Origin: a virus
Strand: one strand, 5' to 3'
Virus record (IMG/VR): IMGVR_UViG_3300042691_026603
Span: 1-33,000 of that record
DNA: 33,000 nucleotides
Positions 14,057 to 22,372 of the stretch are shown here, in pieces. How positions within the stretch are numbered: the stretch's first letter is position 1; each line of letters opens with the position of its first letter. The notes beneath the pieces are model-generated. The model saw only the letters and a program-made list of their open reading frames with translations, searched no databases and had not been told where the DNA came from. The translations under genes were made by a program, and so were the position numbers.

Positions 14057-15589
14057 TCAGTTAGGCGGTTGAGCGGGCGCATCGCCCGCGTTGATCTGGA
14101 TTTGCAGCGCCCCGTTCTTCGCGACCGTGCGCGGGTCGCTGTCCAGAATGAGATTGAGCGCGTCGAGCTGAGCGTTGGTGGCCGCGATCTCGGCGAGGTG
14201 CGCCGCCGGATCGAGCCCGCGTTCCGCGATCTTTTGCGGGAGCGTCGCCAGCCCTGAGCGCAATTCAAGCAGATCGGACATCGCGTCCTTGAGCGGATCG
14301 ACGCTGTAGAACTTCGGCGGCGACCACTCCCACGTCAGCGTGTCGTCGCTGATCGCGCCGGACAGGTAGTGCGCCTCGGTGAACCAGTCGGCGATGCGGT
14401 CCAGCATCATCGGGATCATCATCTGCCACTGCACCGTCTCAACGAGGCGGCGATACTCGGTCAGCCCGGCCCGGATCGAGGAGTAGTTGACCTGCGAGAG
14501 GTCGCCGGTCAGCAGCTCATAGGGTAGGCGGAAGCCAGCCGCGACGGTGTGGAGCATCGAGCGCTTGTAGGCGTCATATGATCCGGTGGCGGCGGGCGTG
14601 TTGAACTTGATGTCGCGACCGCCGCGAGCGTAGGCGAACATGCCGGGCTCAAAGCGCTCAACCGACTGGCCCTGCGCGTCATAGACGCCGGCGTGCTGGT
14701 CGCCATCGAGCGGGATGCCGACGCCCATGTCGTTCTCGTCGCCGCCGGTGACAACGCCGACCATGCAGGCTTCAATCTTTTTGCGGATCAGCTCCGCGGC
14801 CTCGTAGTCGCCGAGGTCACGCAGCGCTGACATTGCTGCGGTGCCCCATGGGACGCCGCGCACCTGCGTGCGGAGCTTGTCGTAGACGTGGATCACATCG
14901 GCAGCGGGCACGCGAACAGACGTGATGCCCGGCCTAGTGAAATAGTTGACGTTGTCGGGGTGCTGGCTGAATAGCCAGTAGGCTACGCGCCGCCCGATCT
15001 TGTCGAACTCGACGCCCTGAATAGCGTAGTTCCCGCCCGGCAGCGGTCCATCTTTAAGGCTGTCAATCAGATCAGCCTCGATGATCTGGATTTGCATGTT
15101 GCCGGGCACGCGATCCGTGACCCTGCGCCAGCGCCGGCGGATCAGAACCTCGCCGGCCTCGACGACCTGCCGGAAGGCGAGCGTCTGCAAGCCATTCAGA
15201 TCGAGCTGGCCGTCAGCATCGCAGCGGCGGGCCCACTCGGCCCATGCCTGAGCGGCGGCCTTGGTGCGGGCTTCCGTGCGCGCCTTTGGGCGGCCCTCGA
15301 TGCCATTGCCGACGACGTTAGTCACCCACTTTGAAACGGCATTTGCGCCGTGAGGGTTGTTCCGCACCAGCTCTCGCATAGCTGCGCGCAGGGCCGGCGC
15401 TGCGACGCCGATTTCGCTGTCAGCGCTTGAGCCCGTGCGCCGCAAGGCGGGGTTATTGCGTCCGGGTCGAGCTGCATCATAGGACCGAGCCGCGATCTCA
15501 AATGCCGCGCGCTGGCGGATGCGGCGTAGTCCAGCAGCGGGCGCAATGGCCCCGATTGCGCGGTCCAGCCACGTCGTCCGCATAGCCAT
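14057..15589 (-). CDS. Portal protein, lambda gpB family
   Basis: 510 residues, the usual length. The N-terminus (RSYDAARPGR...) and the following RELVRNNPHGANAVSKWVTNVVGNGI region are the classic signature of lambda-type portals. Further conserved stretches are ADLID, the GVEFD.IGRRVAYWL strand, RPGITSVRVPAADVIHVY and YSSIRAGLTEYRRLVETVQ. The portal forms the dodecameric DNA entry ring. The start overlaps the stop of the gpW-like gene (TGATG). A second in-frame ATG lies two codons on. Confidence 0.93.
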   Translation of the reverse strand: MAMRTTWLDRAIGAIAPAAGLRRIRQRAAFEIAARSYDAARPGRNNPALRRTGSSADSEIGVAAPALRAAMRELVRNNPHGANAVSKWVTNVVGNGIEGRPKARTEARTKAAAQAWAEWARRCDADGQLDLNGLQTLAFRQVVEAGEVLIRRRWRRVTDRVPGNMQIQIIEADLIDSLKDGPLPGGNYAIQGVEFDKIGRRVAYWLFSQHPDNVNYFTRPGITSVRVPAADVIHVYDKLRTQVRGVPWGTAAMSALRDLGDYEAAELIRKKIEACMVGVVTGGDENDMGVGIPLDGDQHAGVYDAQGQSVERFEPGMFAYARGGRDIKFNTPAATGSYDAYKRSMLHTVAAGFRLPYELLTGDLSQVNYSSIRAGLTEYRRLVETVQWQMMIPMMLDRIADWFTEAHYLSGAISDDTLTWEWSPPKFYSVDPLKDAMSDLLELRSGLATLPQKIAERGLDPAAHLAEIAATNAQLDALNLILDSDPRTVAKNGALQIQINAGDAPAQPPN

Positions 15590-15850: not shown

Positions 15851-17860
15851 TCACCAGATGGATTGTCGAGGCAGGAAGCCCTGCCGCTTTGCTGACGCTG
15901 GCGTGGCCGCTGGCGGGCGCTCGCTAGTTTCGGCGACCTCTATAGCGCCCTGCTGCTCCGGCGGCGCTGTAGCCGCCCCACCGGGCCGCCGTGCGCCCTC
16001 GCGGATGCGCTGGACCCCCAGCATGTAGGCGGCGGCGAATGCCAGCGCCTCGCAGTCGAGGAAGTGGTTGTCCCGGAAGGTCACGACCCACTGATGGCCG
16101 CCGCCCGGCTTGCGGACTCGGGCCTCGGAGACGATCTGCCGGCAATACTCCTCGGATGGCTCCTCGTGCAGATGCCAGCCGCCGGGCTGATCCGCCGGCC
16201 ACTTAATCCGCTCGTGAACCCACGATTTGAAGAAGTCGGTCGATAGACGCACGAGGTCGATGCCATACTTCGCCTTGCCCCCTTTCGGGGCGGCGTCGAT
16301 CCTGTTGACCGTCAGCGGCGTCGGGCGGGTGTCGAAGCCCTTAGTGGCGAAAACCTGCCGCGAGAAGCGGCGGGCGAACTCATAGACCTTGTGCTCGGGC
16401 ACCAGATCGCGCTTGCCGGGGCGGAAGCCCGCATCGACGAACATGCGCGCGATGGGCAGGCCCGCCCACGTCGATTGCAGCACGTCAGCGAGATCGGTCC
16501 AGACCTCCTCCTGTGAGGTGTCGCCCCAGATTTCGCCGCTAGTGATCAGCGCGCTCTGCTGGCGCGATCCCCAGCCGCGCACGGCGTAGATCAGGCGGTT
16601 CTTCTGCACGTCCACGCCGGCGGTCAGGAACAGAACCCACTCGGGCACGTCGCCTTGCCGATACGGCAGCGCTAGCCCGCGCACATGCTCCCATTCGGGG
16701 ACATCGCCGCCGACCGGAGCCCATAGCTCGCCGAACCCGGCGTTAATGACCGTCTGAACCTGCTGGTGATCGCCGGAGCGCAGCGCGGTCACGTAGGCTG
16801 CGGCCCGCTCGCCAAAGCTCTTGAACGGCGAGCATAGCCCGCTCACCCAGAAGCTCAGCGTCTCGCTGGCCGGCGGGTCGCCGACTACGTTGCCGTCCTC
16901 ATCGATGGTCTGCCCCGGCGCGACATAGACGCCCGTGGCGTTCATGCTCTCGCGGTGCTCGTCAGTGATGACGCAGCCATTGCGAGGGCACACCAGATGC
17001 GCCTCGGCCTTCGCCCGGCTCGACGTAGTCTTGCGAGCGTCAGGTATCTCAAGGCACGAGAAGCGGGGGACAAAGCGCTCGCTGCAATGCGGGCAGCGCC
17101 ACGTCCAGTGGTAGCGCGTTCCCTCCTGCCAGAGGCCCCAAATCTTGCTATCTATCTCGTCGGCTTCCTGCTCGGCCCAGAACTCAAGACCGCTTGCCTC
17201 GTCCCTCACCACGTCCTTCGGCCCCTTGCTCGGCGTGCTGACGATCACATGCACGAAGTCGTCGTAGGTGTCGCCGCGAGCATCGACCAGCCCGACAGGG
17301 TCGCCTTGCCCCTTGACGTTGCGCAGCAGCTCGTCAGCCTCGTCGGTCAGCGCGAGGCCAGCCGGGTCGGATTTGAGCGCAGTCGATGATCCGCCGTGCG
17401 CCAGCCGGAGCGGCACGCCCGCGATCAGCTTGCGGGTTTTCTTGTTCGCCTGCCCGCGCGACACCTTGCCCTTTAGGACCGGGGCCTCATCGAGCAGCGC
17501 CATGACGCGCGGCTCCCATTGCTCGACAATAAAATTTCGGGTCGGGCCCACGTAGAGGATCGGGGTCGGGGCCTGATCCAGCTTCTGCCCGATCAGGTCG
17601 AGCAGCATCTCGCTCTTGCCGCCCTGCGCGGCCATGGCTAGCACGACGCGGCGATGAGTGCCGGCAGCGGCGGCGCGTCCCGGCGCGATGGTGTAGGGCG
17701 TCAGGTTAGGATTGCGCGGGCCGGGCCGACCAGCCGTCTCGGGGTATCGCCGATTAGCTGCCCCCCACTCGTCAGGTGTCGTTCTCCGCGTCGCCGTTAG
17801 CAGTCGTGCGACCCGCTGCCACGTCGCGAGACCTCTCAGCGGCACGAGCGGCGATGTCAT
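15851..17860 (-). CDS. Large terminase subunit, lambda GpA family
   Basis: 669 residues from the ATG at 17860. TPDEWGAANRRYP and RPGPRNPNLTPY near the N-terminus are GpA hallmarks. The ATPase has A-A-Q-G-G-K-S (about 77-83) and a Walker B-like L-T-D-E-A-D-E-L. A CPHC...C...C cluster fits the zinc-binding region of this family, and the nuclease part follows (GVDVQ, D-A-G-F). It cuts and translocates DNA into the prohead, with the TerS protein giving specificity. The start sits 89 bases inside the small subunit gene. No nearer ATG or GTG in frame gives a complete N-terminus, and a GTG at 17875 is an alternative. Confidence 0.92.
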   Translation of the reverse strand: MTSPLVPLRGLATWQRVARLLTATRRTTPDEWGAANRRYPETAGRPGPRNPNLTPYTIAPGRAAAAGTHRRVVLAMAAQGGKSEMLLDLIGQKLDQAPTPILYVGPTRNFIVEQWEPRVMALLDEAPVLKGKVSRGQANKKTRKLIAGVPLRLAHGGSSTALKSDPAGLALTDEADELLRNVKGQGDPVGLVDARGDTYDDFVHVIVSTPSKGPKDVVRDEASGLEFWAEQEADEIDSKIWGLWQEGTRYHWTWRCPHCSERFVPRFSCLEIPDARKTTSSRAKAEAHLVCPRNGCVITDEHRESMNATGVYVAPGQTIDEDGNVVGDPPASETLSFWVSGLCSPFKSFGERAAAYVTALRSGDHQQVQTVINAGFGELWAPVGGDVPEWEHVRGLALPYRQGDVPEWVLFLTAGVDVQKNRLIYAVRGWGSRQQSALITSGEIWGDTSQEEVWTDLADVLQSTWAGLPIARMFVDAGFRPGKRDLVPEHKVYEFARRFSRQVFATKGFDTRPTPLTVNRIDAAPKGGKAKYGIDLVRLSTDFFKSWVHERIKWPADQPGGWHLHEEPSEEYCRQIVSEARVRKPGGGHQWVVTFRDNHFLDCEALAFAAAYMLGVQRIREGARRPGGAATAPPEQQGAIEVAETSERPPAATPASAKRQGFLPRQSIW

Positions 17861-18419
17861 TTCTGATTGCGTCACACTCGCTCTCGACTTTTCGCCTGAA
17901 AGACACGTCGCGCGATACCCGCGCCGGCAGGCTGGCAAGCCCGGAGATGAATAGGCCGCACAGCTCGTCTACGATGTCGCTGTGCTCGGTCACGTCGATC
18001 AGCCGGCGCTCGCGCTCGGCGGTGCGGACCTCAACCTCGCGCTGACGCGCGGCCTTAAGCCCGCTCTCGGCTGCCGATTTCGATGACCGCCGGTCCTCAT
18101 CCTTTAGCCATCGGATGTAGCCGGCCTGCGCTTGTATCAGAGACACGCCCCCGAGGGGGTGGCGCTCAATGTAGCCTTCGCTGATCAGGTGCAGAACCCA
18201 CGGCGCGGTGATCCCCATCGCCGCGCCGGCCTCCTCCAGCGTCACGTTGCCGGCGCGAAGGTGCTTGATGATGCGGGTGACCGTTCGGATCAGGGGCACC
18301 TGCCCCTTCACGATCTTCGGGATCACGCCGCGCCGGGCGAGGCGTGTAAGCTCCTCCTCCGAGCTGGCGAGGATCGTTGACGCGGCCTCAATCGGGACCA
18401 GCGTCTCCTTATCGCTCAT
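17772..18419 (-). CDS. Small terminase subunit (DNA recognition)
   Basis: 215 residues. The start overlaps the IbrB-like stop (ATGA). The first 110 residues hold winged-helix/HTH-like segments (EEAGAAMGITAPWVLHLISEGYI), the central part is a charged coiled coil (LKAARQREVEVRTAERERRLID), and the C-terminus has the LFISGLASLPARVSRD segment typical of alphaproteobacterial small terminases that pair with GpA-type enzymes. It would bind the packaging site. The gene overlaps the large subunit by 89 bases. Confidence 0.85.
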   Translation of the reverse strand: MSDKETLVPIEAASTILASSEEELTRLARRGVIPKIVKGQVPLIRTVTRIIKHLRAGNVTLEEAGAAMGITAPWVLHLISEGYIERHPLGGVSLIQAQAGYIRWLKDEDRRSSKSAAESGLKAARQREVEVRTAERERRLIDVTEHSDIVDELCGLFISGLASLPARVSRDVSFRRKVESECDAIRNDIAARAAERSRDVAAGRTTANGDAENDT

Positions 18420-18931
18420 TTCGGAACCCATCCGTTGCCGAATTCCGCAGCGCGGCCCCGGTTCGTCATGCCGGAGTGATCGAGCAGGCGCTCAACCTCC
18501 TCCTCCTCCATGGAAAGACGCTGCTGGATTTCCTTGTCGCTCAGCCCCTCGTCCTTCAATGCCGACATGATCTTCGACATATTGACGATCCGGTGCGTGC
18601 CGCGAGCGCGGTTGTGCCTGATCGTGCTCATCATCTGATGGGCCATGTCAGGGTCAAGAAGCCGCACGACCGGGACGAGACCGCCGGTCAAGGCCATGAC
18701 ATCCGGGTCAGTGCTGCCCAGCGTGAAACGGTGAAATCCGTCAACGATTTCCCCGTCAATGCGAGCCACAATTGGCTGCGTCCAGCCATCCTCGAGGATG
18801 CTCGTCTTGAGCAGCTTCATCTCAGGAGGCGCGACGCGGTTCGGGTTATAGCTGTTCGCCCGGAGCGTCTTGGGGTCTACCCACTCAATCTTGTTGAGCG
18901 GCTGGTTTTCAGTGCCGGCTTTCGCGGCCAT
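18416..18931 (-). CDS. IbrB-like ParB-domain protein
   Basis: 171 residues. A ParB/sulfiredoxin-like domain occupies about residues 12-110, with the Y-N-P-N motif (28-31) and a G-E-I-V-D-G-F-H-R segment (60-68) replacing the usual G-x-R-R box. The C-terminus (EGLSDKEIQQRLSMEEEEVERLLD) is an HTH-like region, and GNGWVPK ends the protein, as in IbrB-like proteins I know. In Escherichia coli IbrB is encoded with IbrA by prophages and regulates surface immunoglobulin-binding genes. Here the IbrA-like gene lies directly upstream and the terminase directly downstream. Confidence 0.85.
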   Translation of the reverse strand: MAAKAGTENQPLNKIEWVDPKTLRANSYNPNRVAPPEMKLLKTSILEDGWTQPIVARIDGEIVDGFHRFTLGSTDPDVMALTGGLVPVVRLLDPDMAHQMMSTIRHNRARGTHRIVNMSKIMSALKDEGLSDKEIQQRLSMEEEEVERLLDHSGMTNRGRAAEFGNGWVPK

Positions 18932-19014
18932 TAAGTCACCCGGAAATGATGGCGAGTTGCTTCACGGAGCTGCGCCGCACCATCGAACGGAACGCTGCAA
19001 AGATAGATGCCCTC

Positions 19015-19032
19015 GCTGACAAAAATGTCAGC
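19015..19032. repeat. Perfect inverted repeat in the ibrA-like/ibrB-like gap
   Basis: A 7-base stem (GCTGACA with TGTCAGC) around an AAAA loop lies just after the IbrA-like stop. There is no U tract. It may be a protein-binding site or an RNA processing hairpin. It overlaps a start-less coding-like frame described in the findings. Confidence 0.4.
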
Positions 19033-19043
19033 AAGCGACGGGC

Positions 19044-20333
19044 TTACGCCGGATTATTTGGCAGGTCCCCGGCCTCTTTCATCAAGGCAATCTCGGCCCA
19101 ATACTTAGCTTCCTGAGCCGGGTTGTGCTCCTTGTCGCGCCGTGGCTGCTTGCGCTCCTTGAAGTCGCCGCGCATGGCTAGCATCAGAAGGAAATTCCAG
19201 CTCAGGCCGGTCACATAGTGAGGGGTATTCACCGCGATAGGGTCGCTTGTGCTCGAGACATGGCCGAAATGCCACATCTTGATCCGGCGCACGATCTGCT
19301 CCTGAACTTTCGGGGGATGCTTTTCAATCCACTTTCTCAGGAAGTCGTCCCACGACATTCCGGCTGGCTTCTCCGGCCTCTCGCCGAAGCCATAAAGCTC
19401 AGTTCGGGAGTAGCGCGCGGCGGTCGCCGCTCCCGGCACGCGGTCAACCATTTTCTCCCAGAGATCAGGAAAACAGGTGGCATACATCCACAAGTCTTGC
19501 ATCGGCTCCTCGCCATACGGCGGGGCCACGCGCTGATTATGAGGCTTCATCCCTGACATGCTCATCAGGTCATACGAGCGGTTGTAGTCCCACCCGAACA
19601 CAGATGGCGCGGTCCACACGTCCTCAGTCTTCCAGTCGTAAATCGGGTAAGCCTTCCAGACGTTGCCCTGACTGTAGCCCTCGTCGAACTTCCTGATCCA
19701 TGGGCGGCTGTCCGGCGTCGGCTTAAGGATCGCGCCCAGCCGGATCAGGCTTTCCTGCGCCCGCACGCCTAAGAGGAGCGCGGTGCGCCCGAACTCTCGG
19801 GCCGGGAACAATAGCCCGTTGAGGCTCGGGATCGTGGGCCGCTTGTCCGGCTCAATCGGGAAGTGCGGCATCTGATGATAGGTTATGCCCTCCGGCGGCA
19901 TGGGCCGAACCCACAAGCTTTCCGCCTCGGGTGCCCACGGCCACCAATACGGATGCTTGCGAGAGCAGGCGTTGCGGTGCTGAACCGGGAGGCAAAACCA
20001 CTTCATGTCAACTTCGCCGGATTGATAAACCCGGCGAACGTATGCCTCCGTTTCGTATTGGATCGCCTCCTCATCGAAATGTATCGTCGGCACTTTGCCT
20101 CGACCCATTTCTCGGGCGACCTCAACTGCAAGATTGAGGACTACGGTGCTGTCCTTTCCGCCGCTAAAACTAACAACGACGGTGTCAAACAGCTCAAAGC
20201 ATTCCCTTATCCGCTGGCGGGCAAGGTCAATGACAGACGTTTCAATCGCCGACTTTGTCCGATGAAATCGGCCATCGCTCGCGACTTGCGACTTCTTCAC
20301 TCGGTGAATTTTTACGGGAGCGGCAGTGCTCAT
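19044..20333 (-). CDS. IbrA-like PAPS-reductase-family PP-loop protein (DUF3440 type)
   Basis: 429 residues. The PP-loop V-V-S-F-S-G-G-K-D-S (about 53-62) binds ATP and phosphate in the family. Downstream are FDEEAIQYETEAYVRR, MKWFCLPVQHRNACS, and RTALLLGVRAQES, which mark the IbrA/YbdN branch, and a long C-terminal extension typical of DUF3440. True PAPS reductases use a C-terminal catalytic Cys, which is not obvious here. IbrA-like proteins are found with IbrB and are predicted to act in sulfur- or nucleotide-based DNA chemistry, but the reaction is unknown. The start ATG at 20333 lies 10 bases after the cupin stop; its Shine-Dalgarno is weak. Confidence 0.88.
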   Translation of the reverse strand: MSTAAPVKIHRVKKSQVASDGRFHRTKSAIETSVIDLARQRIRECFELFDTVVVSFSGGKDSTVVLNLAVEVAREMGRGKVPTIHFDEEAIQYETEAYVRRVYQSGEVDMKWFCLPVQHRNACSRKHPYWWPWAPEAESLWVRPMPPEGITYHQMPHFPIEPDKRPTIPSLNGLLFPAREFGRTALLLGVRAQESLIRLGAILKPTPDSRPWIRKFDEGYSQGNVWKAYPIYDWKTEDVWTAPSVFGWDYNRSYDLMSMSGMKPHNQRVAPPYGEEPMQDLWMYATCFPDLWEKMVDRVPGAATAARYSRTELYGFGERPEKPAGMSWDDFLRKWIEKHPPKVQEQIVRRIKMWHFGHVSSTSDPIAVNTPHYVTGLSWNFLLMLAMRGDFKERKQPRRDKEHNPAQEAKYWAEIALMKEAGDLPNNPA

Positions 20334-20343
20334 CTCGACCCCG

Positions 20344-21066
20344 TCACTTCCGAATTTCGTTCGTGCGGATCGCGTCAATATGCTTGGCGGACACCCCGTC
20401 AACAATCGTGCGATTGAGCATCGGGTGTTCCTCGTGCGTCGGGCCGAAGTCGGTGTCCGGGTGAAACACCGTGAGCGTCATGTCGCTGTCCTCAGTCGCG
20501 AAGGCGTGGATCGCGTCAGGGAACAGGATGAACATCTTGCCCGGCAGCAGGTCTTCCGTCCCGAGCGCCGTGTGGCAGAAGCCGCGACCGTCGTGGATCA
20601 GCCCGGCCCGGATCGTGGGGTGCGTGTGCCTCGTCTGGTCGATGCCCGCCGGAAAGTGCAGCAGGTTGAAGCACGGATCGCCGCGCAGCGGCGGCGCGAT
20701 CAGCAACGTGTCCGAGCATCCGTCGATGTAGCGGAGCCGCCCGACGTTATCGGTCGGGCCTCCCACGGAATTGAGGCCGCGATAGCCGAGGCGAAAGGCG
20801 ATGAAGCCAGTCGCGCCTGAGACGGCGAAGCTGGTCCCGGCGAGGGAGAAGTAGCATCCGGCCTGCACGGTGTAGGCGCGGCTATCGACGTTGATCGTGG
20901 CCTCGCCCTTCCAGACATAGCCGAAGGCCGTGCCCTCCTCATTAACGGAGAGCGGCTCGTCAGGGCCGAAGCCGTAGACCTTGGTGGGGTAGTCGGTGTC
21001 GGAGAAGTCGGCCATCAGGCCGGGCTGGAGATCGCGGATCAGGGCGGCGGGGGTAGCGGCGGTCAT
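20344..21066 (-). CDS. Double-cupin domain protein
   Basis: 240 residues. Two cupin-like halves are visible: residues about 45-95 (YVWKGEATINVDSRAYTVQAGCYFSL) and 140-205 (RHTHPTIRAGLIHDGRGFC...LLPGKMFILFPDAIHAF). H147, H149 and H187 form a plausible metal site. Cupins may be isomerases, dioxygenases or small-molecule binders, so the reaction cannot be read from sequence. It begins 4 bases after the ParB-like stop and lies in the same leftward operon as the IbrA-like gene, suggesting a joint pathway. Confidence 0.8.
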   Translation of the reverse strand: MTAATPAALIRDLQPGLMADFSDTDYPTKVYGFGPDEPLSVNEEGTAFGYVWKGEATINVDSRAYTVQAGCYFSLAGTSFAVSGATGFIAFRLGYRGLNSVGGPTDNVGRLRYIDGCSDTLLIAPPLRGDPCFNLLHFPAGIDQTRHTHPTIRAGLIHDGRGFCHTALGTEDLLPGKMFILFPDAIHAFATEDSDMTLTVFHPDTDFGPTHEEHPMLNRTIVDGVSAKHIDAIRTNEIRK

Positions 21067-21070
21067 GGGG

Positions 21071-21748
21071 TCAGTTTTCCTCGTCAGCCATAGCGAGTAG
21101 CGCCTGAGCAGCGGTCTTTAAGCCACGGCTGTCACGCTCGCGCGCTAGATACCGCACCACGCGGTCGCGCTCCTCGGGCAGGTAGTGCAGGTTCAGGGTC
21201 ACGCCGCGAGCGACGAGGTGCGGGTCAACATCGTCCGACTTGTCCTTATCGGGCGCGGGCAGATTGATGCCCGATAGGAAATCTGATCCCGGTGCCGGCG
21301 CAGAATAAACCGCGATTTCATCAGCGCTGAAACCGATGCCGCTGAGGTCAGCGCCGATCTCGGAGAGCGAGGCGATCTCGCTGGCGAGGCGGTCAACGTC
21401 CCACGATGATGTTTCGGCAAGGCGGTTGTCGGCGATAGAATAGGCCCGGCACTGCTCCTCGCTCCACCCCGAAGCGACCATCACCGGGACTTCGCTCAGG
21501 TTAAGCGTCCGGGCGGCAAGCACGCGACCGTGGCCGGCAATGATCGTGCCGTTCTCGCGGACCAGAACCGGGATCGTGAACCCGAACTGACGGATAGAGC
21601 TGGCTAGTTGCTCGACCTGCTCCTCGCTGTGAAGGCGGGCGTTGTCGGCGTAGGGGATGAGGTCTTCAATCGGCCAACGCTTTACCTTGTCGGCAGGCCA
21701 GAGAGACGCAGTTTCGGAGGGGGCTGAGGTGCCCTTCCTGCTAACCAT
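21071..21748 (-). CDS. ParB N-terminal domain protein
   Basis: 225 residues from the ATG at 21748, which has AGGAG upstream; longer in-frame openings reach back through an oppositely oriented gene and are not supported. The ParB-like domain includes LIPYADNARLHSEEQVEQLASSIRQFGF, I-A-G-H-G-R (70-75) and the VPVMVASGWSEEQCRAYSIADNRLAE motif. Phage ParB-domain proteins of this kind are often attached to or next to DNA methylases; no methylase domain is present here. The C-terminal 70 residues (LNLHYLPEERDRVVRYL) are helical. It heads the cluster ParB - cupin - IbrA - IbrB - terminase. Confidence 0.88.
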   Translation of the reverse strand: MVSRKGTSAPSETASLWPADKVKRWPIEDLIPYADNARLHSEEQVEQLASSIRQFGFTIPVLVRENGTIIAGHGRVLAARTLNLSEVPVMVASGWSEEQCRAYSIADNRLAETSSWDVDRLASEIASLSEIGADLSGIGFSADEIAVYSAPAPGSDFLSGINLPAPDKDKSDDVDPHLVARGVTLNLHYLPEERDRVVRYLARERDSRGLKTAAQALLAMADEEN

Positions 21749-21853: not shown

Positions 21854-22372
21854 ATGACCATCAGCACCCAAAAGATCAACGAACTCACCGCCGCCCTCAC
21901 CAACCAGAGCGTTGGAAAGGCCGCTACCAAGGACGCCGCTAGCAAGCGGTTCCTCAAGGCAGCAGCCGAGCGCAGCATCGATGGCGAAGCGATCCTCGCC
22001 GCCGCCGATCCCGTAGCCGCCCTGCAGGCAGCCCTGAACCCCGCGCCCGTCGCGGCTAAGGCCCCGAAGGCCCCTAAGCCCGCCAAGGAGAAGGCTCCGC
22101 GCCCTCCACGGTCCTTCACCCGCACCGGCCTCGCCGCTGCCCCGCGCATCAAGAAGTCCGAGACGCTCCGGGCCGATGGCCTCGTTGACGGCGGCGTTGA
22201 CGCTATCCTGATCGACGCGGTTAAGCGCGGGAACGGCGCTCTGCACTCTGAGCTGTGCGAGATGGTCGGCTGGAAGAAGTGCGACCGCCGCCTGCGGCGC
22301 GCGGCTGACATCTCCGGCGTCAAGCTGATCGTGGCCCGCGAGGGGAAGGACCATCGGTTTAGCGTCGCCTGA
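21854..22372 (+). CDS. Unknown Lys/Ala/Pro-rich protein with C-terminal helical domain
   Basis: 172 residues, the only rightward gene in the left two thirds. GGAGAAAACGAAA precedes the ATG. Residues 1-60 are helical, 65-95 form a flexible Ala-Pro-Lys linker, and 105-172 form a compact domain (SELCEMVGWKKCDRRLRRAADIS, ending KDHRFSVA) that resembles a winged-helix regulator of the DUF3489 type, though the family is not certain. A strong terminator follows. Opposite orientation, own promoter region and own terminator suggest a moron expressed apart from the late genes. Confidence 0.7.
   Translation: MTISTQKINELTAALTNQSVGKAATKDAASKRFLKAAAERSIDGEAILAAADPVAALQAALNPAPVAAKAPKAPKPAKEKAPRPPRSFTRTGLAAAPRIKKSETLRADGLVDGGVDAILIDAVKRGNGALHSELCEMVGWKKCDRRLRRAADISGVKLIVAREGKDHRFSVA

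Follow-up and report, generated by a model that had tools for sequence, protein, structure and literature searches.

IbrA and IbrB are a common prophage pair, for which no established biochemical activity was found in the open literature that we searched. Proteins of the ParB superfamily accompany PP-loop or transglycosylase enzymes in the systems Dnd and Dpd (PMC10853773, PMC12839542). In another DNA-modification pathway, the phage protein CmoY, an asparagine-synthetase-like ligase, couples glycine to carboxymethylcytosine; CmoY loci have ParBc neighbours, and some variants bear a glutamine amidotransferase (GATase) (PMC12783734). Could the genes that travel with IbrA and IbrB hint at a chemistry of this kind? 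We analysed IMG/VR record IMGVR_UViG_3300042691_026603, positions 1 to 33,000 (the window), a 33-kb fragment from an uncultured virus, in which genes for a ParB-like protein (ParB1), a double cupin (bicupin), IbrA and IbrB lie directly upstream of the terminase genes. These four genes constitute a tightly packed, recurrent and co-inherited cassette of many unrelated uncultured phages. New here is that its cupin family is repeatedly paired with unrelated PP-loop (AMP-forming) enzymes.

Recurrence and layout of the cassette

A first cupin search of viral contigs returned 49 relatives, about two thirds of them beside ParB, IbrA and IbrB. Alignments as queries gave 558 cupin matches in viral and 155 in genome contigs; the loci of the 80 best matches from each group were fetched. 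Three bacterial contigs (L069, L097, L103) also contain the complete set. Many other viral contigs share the set, which therefore goes beyond chance, and co-occurrence of the four homologues elsewhere, proposed as a check in a first-pass annotation of this DNA, was found. After removal of redundancy, 127 loci hold this IbrA clade, and 108 of these encode the bicupin; the pool is partly ascertained through the cupin and still rich in near-duplicates despite filtering, and most of its loci hold all four genes. In the less biased sample, fetched with IbrA, 41 of 60 clade loci encode the cupin and 55 encode ParB1. Canonical IbrA loci have neither (0/17 for each), and the cupin is likewise missing from canonical loci fetched with IbrB (0/24). 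Our clade is defined by a 300-bit threshold on a hidden Markov model built from cupin loci, which renders the division into clade and canonical loci partly circular; it is supported independently of the cupin, because ParB1 is distributed 55/60 versus 0/17.

The commonest order is ParB1-cupin-IbrA-IbrB (67 loci), followed by ParB1-IbrA-IbrB-cupin (12) and by ParB1-cupin-PAPSshort-IbrA-IbrB (11), which includes a second, short PAPS_reduct protein. Gene junctions are mostly ≤20 nt, and many genes overlap. Protein distances co-vary within the cassette with r of 0.57–0.72, versus 0.45–0.55 with the large terminase subunit (TerL), in correlations that are uncorrected for phylogeny and for which TerL distances across families are saturated. 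Neither a cassette phage nor the cupin itself was found in an isolate collection of 50,697 phage records, and surveys of phage DNA modification that rely on cultures would for this reason have missed the cassette. No open paper was found that links cupin, ParB and phage with PAPS reductase or with terminase, subscription literature being outside the scope. N6/N4 methyltransferases score over cut-off in 3/36 cassette phages versus 3/18 canonical IbrA phages, which does not separate the two groups.

In the window, the four co-directional open reading frames (ORFs) occupy 21748–18416 on the minus strand, with lengths and order exactly as first annotated. Transcription runs from ParB1 through bicupin, IbrA and IbrB to terS, terL (gpA type) and portal.

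21071..21748, minus strand: ParB1, 225 aa, ParB_N/Srx fold
20344..21066, minus strand: bicupin, 240 aa, Cupin_2 and AraC_binding
19044..20333, minus strand: IbrA, 429 aa, PP-loop ATP pyrophosphatase type with DUF3440 region
18932..19043, minus strand: IbrA-IbrB spacer, 112 nt, contains a hairpin
18416..18931, minus strand: IbrB, 171 aa, ParB/Srx-like
17772..18431, minus strand: terS, weak match to phrog_57 (4e-9); neighbour, outside the cassette proper
15851..17938, minus strand: terL, gpA type, Pfam GpA_ATPase 6e-41, GpA_nuclease 1.5e-58, phrog_15 2e-168; neighbour
14057–15589, minus strand: portal, downstream of terL

The tight spacing first described holds for gaps of 4, 10 and -16 nt, but not for the 112 nt between IbrA and IbrB; the overlap of IbrB with terS, also part of that description, is confirmed by the ORF coordinates as 16 nt. 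Sequence and fold place a hairpin near 19037–19014 (minus strand), with a 10-bp stem, CTTGCTGACA-TTTT-TGTCAGCGAG; the fold of the whole spacer has a z of only -1.3. On the other side of the cassette, a divergent 172-aa gene (21854–22372, plus strand; weak phrog_7790 match) starts 105 bp from ParB1, the intergenic region being common to both.

The long downstream gene encodes the terminase large subunit in many loci and belongs to several PHROG families (among 94 members, phrog_2 31, phrog_15 25 and phrog_9 12; the families overlap, so that sums are not additive). The cassette lies upstream of the terminase in most loci with room. It recurs before terminases of different families and is therefore mobile between phages, with its place kept. 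HNH and other unrelated genes are also found at this terminase-side site. Position is what would link the cassette to packaging.

The four proteins and the enzyme partners of the bicupin

The domain assignments first made for all four proteins stand (Pfam, PHROG). IbrA matches PAPS_reduct (3e-10, 40.7 bits; cut-off 22.5), DUF3440 (1e-12, 48.3 bits; cut-off 25) and phrog_2302 (5e-86), and is about 33% identical to an annotated phage IbrA. Its PP-loop, FSGGKDST, is intact, and an alignment of 76 relatives conserves cysteines C114 (74/76), C123 (68/76) and C287. The folds nearest to its AlphaFold2 (AF2) model (pLDDT 84) are PAPS/APS reductase, FAD synthase and CysD. Judged by the motif SGGKDS, IbrA may be an AMP-forming PP-loop ligase. 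The catalytic cysteine of the assimilatory PAPS reductase CysH sits in a C-terminal ECGLH; since IbrA lacks this motif and conserves cysteines only at 114, 123 and 287, its identification as CysH was rejected.

ParB1 belongs to the ParB/Srx superfamily (Pfam ParB_N, 1.2e-8, 35.3 bits; cut-off 26.3) and retains a GHxR-type motif (IIAGHGR). It is better matched by phrog_620 (7e-49) than by ParB_N, and it also matches phrog_498, a 'DNA methyltransferase' family, in the ParB region of the latter (2e-46); PADLOC MTase_II covers residues 16–178 of ParB1 (2e-32). In sequence, ParB1 is related to the ParB portion of proteins that fuse ParB to a DNA methyltransferase. Three loci carry a tandem pair of ParB1-type genes ahead of IbrA (L009:4905-6170, L015:4852-6173, L228:1027-2282). 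IbrB matches phrog_2159 (4e-61) and is weak in Pfam, where ParB_N reaches 19.4 bits (1e-3), under the cut-off of 26.3; its profile matches ParB/Spo0J/Noc structures. It adjoins IbrA in nearly all loci, as the ParB-like partner of the IbrB family does. IbrB has a C-terminal helical part and, among its invariant alignment columns, the motifs DGFHR and TIRHNRARG. A scan of ParB1 and IbrB fusions for an informative extra domain found none.

The cupin matches Cupin_2 (5e-9) and AraC_binding (1.6e-8) in Pfam and nothing in PHROG. Its AF2 model (pLDDT 91) comprises two beta barrels, the second of which keeps the HxH...H metal site (H147, H149, H187) that the first lacks. These histidines are invariant across 27 relatives, which also share a strongly conserved signature, GRLxYIDGCSDT ... 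HPD ... GP..HPMxNRT. The closest folds are DR1152, EF2996, YlbA and ureidoglycine aminohydrolase (Z 16–18, 10–13% identity); as modelled, the structure match fixes the fold of the cupin, not its function.

With which enzymes does this cupin occur when IbrA is missing? In nine phage loci without IbrA, on contigs of up to 165 kb, it directly follows a 370-aa protein with the motifs MYSGGIDST and GENADQLFGS (hhalign to Asn_synthase, 95%). This asparagine-synthetase-like partner matches nothing in Pfam or PHROG, nor any of the 50,697 phage records. In bacteria, a PP-loop ORF lies ≤1.5 kb from the cupin in 46 of 80 loci, with hardly any farther away; the commonest such neighbour is Asn_synthase with a glutamine amidotransferase domain. 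IbrA and Asn-type contexts are intermingled in the cupin tree, where well-supported branches force at least 6 changes of the IbrA label.

Further enzymes join the cassette itself. The short PAPS_reduct protein (230–280 aa) is encoded in or beside about 28 of 127 cassettes (for example L002:3824-4522, L047:11201-12052, L249:4829-5608). Next to a short PP-loop protein, four cassettes encode a class-II GATase with an MCG[IL] start; in L249, six genes including the GATase are all joined end to end. Clade members without the bicupin have other genes in or near its slot, namely a single-domain cupin (7 loci), a sodium:solute symporter (SSF; 4) or a TctC solute-binding protein (3), and in one locus an aldehyde dehydrogenase together with a single-domain cupin. 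A short-chain dehydrogenase/reductase (SDR) is also carried by two cupin-bearing loci. Because these slot genes are small-molecule genes, they suggest that the cassette depends on a small molecule that is supplied to it or tailored.

L166:9350-10033, L195:5750-6538, L245:700-1269, L249:5586-6125: class-II GATase
L191:5392-6690, L193:6581-8017, L196:6572-8017, L199:919-2343: sodium:solute symporter
L206:2756-3598, L211:7157-8014: TctC solute-binding protein
L203:6590-7996: aldehyde dehydrogenase

Several other arrangements were seen. Large phages have a set of c10 (245 aa), an asparagine-synthetase-like PP-loop protein and the bicupin (e.g. L031:6091-8642; set present in L031, L033, L037, L039, L041, L042, L044, L046 and L048), in some cases preceded by a radical SAM protein (phrog_1802). 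In bacteria, Asn_synthase, a zinc-ribbon/Toprim-like protein (A6) and the bicupin are clustered at L122:1761-9174 and at further loci from Methylococcales, planctomycetes and verrucomicrobia, and a zinc-ribbon partner (c4) was aligned from bacterial loci. In L068:5301-12886, L100 and L089 (Xenorhabdus, Chromobacterium, Oligoflexia), the cupin occurs with a prolyl-tRNA-synthetase-like protein, GTP cyclohydrolase II, DUF6939 and an AMP-binding enzyme; these are possible natural-product clusters. A cupin-less cassette has two glycosyltransferase-25-like genes directly 5' of its PP-loop genes (L210:5812-7172).

A candidate chemistry and its alternatives

The pairing of the cupin with PP-loop enzymes, together with the extra PP-loop protein and the GATase, points to adenylate-driven group transfer. 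DNA is favoured as the target because the cassette has two ParB/Srx proteins, because ParB proteins are partners in Dnd and Dpd, and because CmoY provides a precedent. Our leading, if tentative, interpretation is that the cassette uses ATP activation (adenylation) to attach a chemical group of its own making, with phage DNA as the most probable target. IbrA would split ATP into AMP and pyrophosphate and adenylate a carbonyl, carboxylate or similar oxygen, from which a nitrogen or other nucleophile would displace AMP. The metal cupin might make or trim the small-molecule group, and the two ParB/Srx proteins could bind DNA and nucleoside triphosphate and so deliver the chemistry to DNA. This would take place late in infection, shortly before packaging, and could shield phage DNA from host nucleases. 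A more specific proposal is possible though doubtful: uncultured phages would share a widespread, so far undescribed pathway of DNA hypermodification, with IbrA adenylating either the base or a donor acid, the bicupin supplying or tailoring the group and both ParB/Srx proteins delivering it. The first-pass suggestion of a multi-step modification of DNA or nucleotides is plausible and gains strength from the pairing of the cupin with AMP-forming PP-loop enzymes and from the CmoY pathway (PMC12783734), but DNA as substrate, like the identity of the product, is what we infer.

Several points weigh against modification of DNA. There is no known enzyme to install a handle on the base, since neither a C5 methyltransferase (PF00145) nor CmoA is found in the window, and among 49 related records the former occurs once (absent from 48/49) and CmoA (TIGR00740) never (0/49, absent from 49/49). 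The window, like the other records, is also a fragment, beyond which further genes may lie. None of the bacterial loci with cupin and Asn_synthase is known for DNA modification, some having genes like those for nonribosomal peptide synthetases (NRPS), and the transporter, TctC and aldehyde dehydrogenase genes of the slot fit small-molecule metabolism equally. Such metabolism is the main rival, and we consider it rather unlikely: a free small molecule or nucleotide would be modified, an acid being imported or made and then amidated, with the ParB proteins as NTPases or regulators. The symporter, TctC, aldehyde dehydrogenase and SDR genes would suit it, as would the occurrence of Asn_synthase, GTP cyclohydrolase II, AMP-binding and NRPS-size genes next to the cupin homologues of bacteria, and a bicupin fold nearest to small-molecule enzymes. 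However, two ParB/Srx proteins, one of them closest to DNA methyltransferase-fused domains, are hard to explain in this way, as is the constant position at the terminase.

The remaining explanations assign other roles to the same proteins. E. coli ibrAB was first described as altering gene expression, and the cassette might encode regulators for host takeover or counter-defence, the ParB proteins binding host DNA or depleting nucleotides, IbrA and IbrB altering host expression and the cupin, whose AraC_binding/Cupin_2 fold is also ligand-sensing, acting as a sensor. The proposal that ParB/Srx proteins in defence nick DNA or consume ATP agrees with such a role (PMC12839542, PMC10853773). Yet the metal site of the cupin is retained, its long signature is strongly conserved, and its recurrent partners are biosynthetic enzymes; we regard this explanation as improbable. 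The PAPS-reductase fold of IbrA, the near-invariant C114 and C123 and a weak DndC match (28.5 bits) would accommodate sulfur chemistry on DNA or nucleotides, like that of DndC (phosphorothioate) or of tRNA thiolases, with the two cysteines carrying sulfur. This is quite improbable: the DndC cut-off of 290 bits is far above the IbrA score, DndD and DndE were not seen, the partners (GATase, Asn_synthase) indicate amidotransferase chemistry, and no cysteine desulfurase (PF00266) is present in the 33-kb record, a fragment whose host might conceivably supply one. It is very improbable that ParB1 and IbrB are packaging accessories that assist the terminase by marking or nicking the pac/cos region. 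The overlap of IbrB with terS and the terminase as next gene in most loci with room agree with it, but the cassette stays constant while terminase families differ, its four proteins co-vary more among themselves than with TerL, and HNH and other unrelated genes share the site.

Comparison with described systems

For IbrA/IbrB, the co-inherited cupin, extra PP-loop protein and GATase are a first concrete chemical hint, towards adenylate-driven group transfer. Viral 'PAPS reductases' reported as auxiliary genes of sulfur metabolism can be of the IbrA type, with no CysH catalytic motif and an adjoining ParB. The cassette belongs to no named pathway except, at the family level, IbrA/IbrB. The canonical pair of phages and prophages also combines PAPS_reduct and DUF3440 with an IbrB partner just downstream, and the names first given to the window's genes hold to this extent; the cassette, however, is a separate clade with ParB1 and bicupin, which canonical loci lack (0/17). 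The (S)-ureidoglycine aminohydrolase-type bicupins (YlbA/DUF861) share the bicupin fold at Z 16–18, whereas the cassette cupin is 10–13% identical to them and has its own signature, GRLxYIDGCSDT, so that their function is not transferable.

Dnd/Ssp (DndC and DndB) likewise joins a PP-loop enzyme to a ParB-superfamily protein; membership was rejected, as IbrA scores 28.5 bits against the DndC equivalog cut-off of 290.4. With Dpd, a system for 7-deazaguanine modification of DNA (the tRNA-guanine transglycosylase DpdA and the ParB-like ATPase DpdB), the cassette has in common a ParB-like ATPase within a DNA-modification set, and it was not assigned there, since the record, a fragment, has no transglycosylase (PF01702) and has a PP-loop enzyme and a cupin instead. 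CmoA-CmoX-CmoY resembles the cassette in the logic of an AMP-forming, Asn-synthetase-like ligase, in the ParBc neighbour, in GATase variants and in its occurrence in tailed phages. The cassette differs in its PAPS-reductase-type IbrA and additional bicupin, and it was excluded from this pathway for want of CmoA and of a C5-methyltransferase-type CmoX in the window. By analogy, the cassette probably works like ligase-based hypermodification, built from other parts; if hypermodification is true, it would give canonical IbrA/IbrB a nucleic-acid-modifying function.

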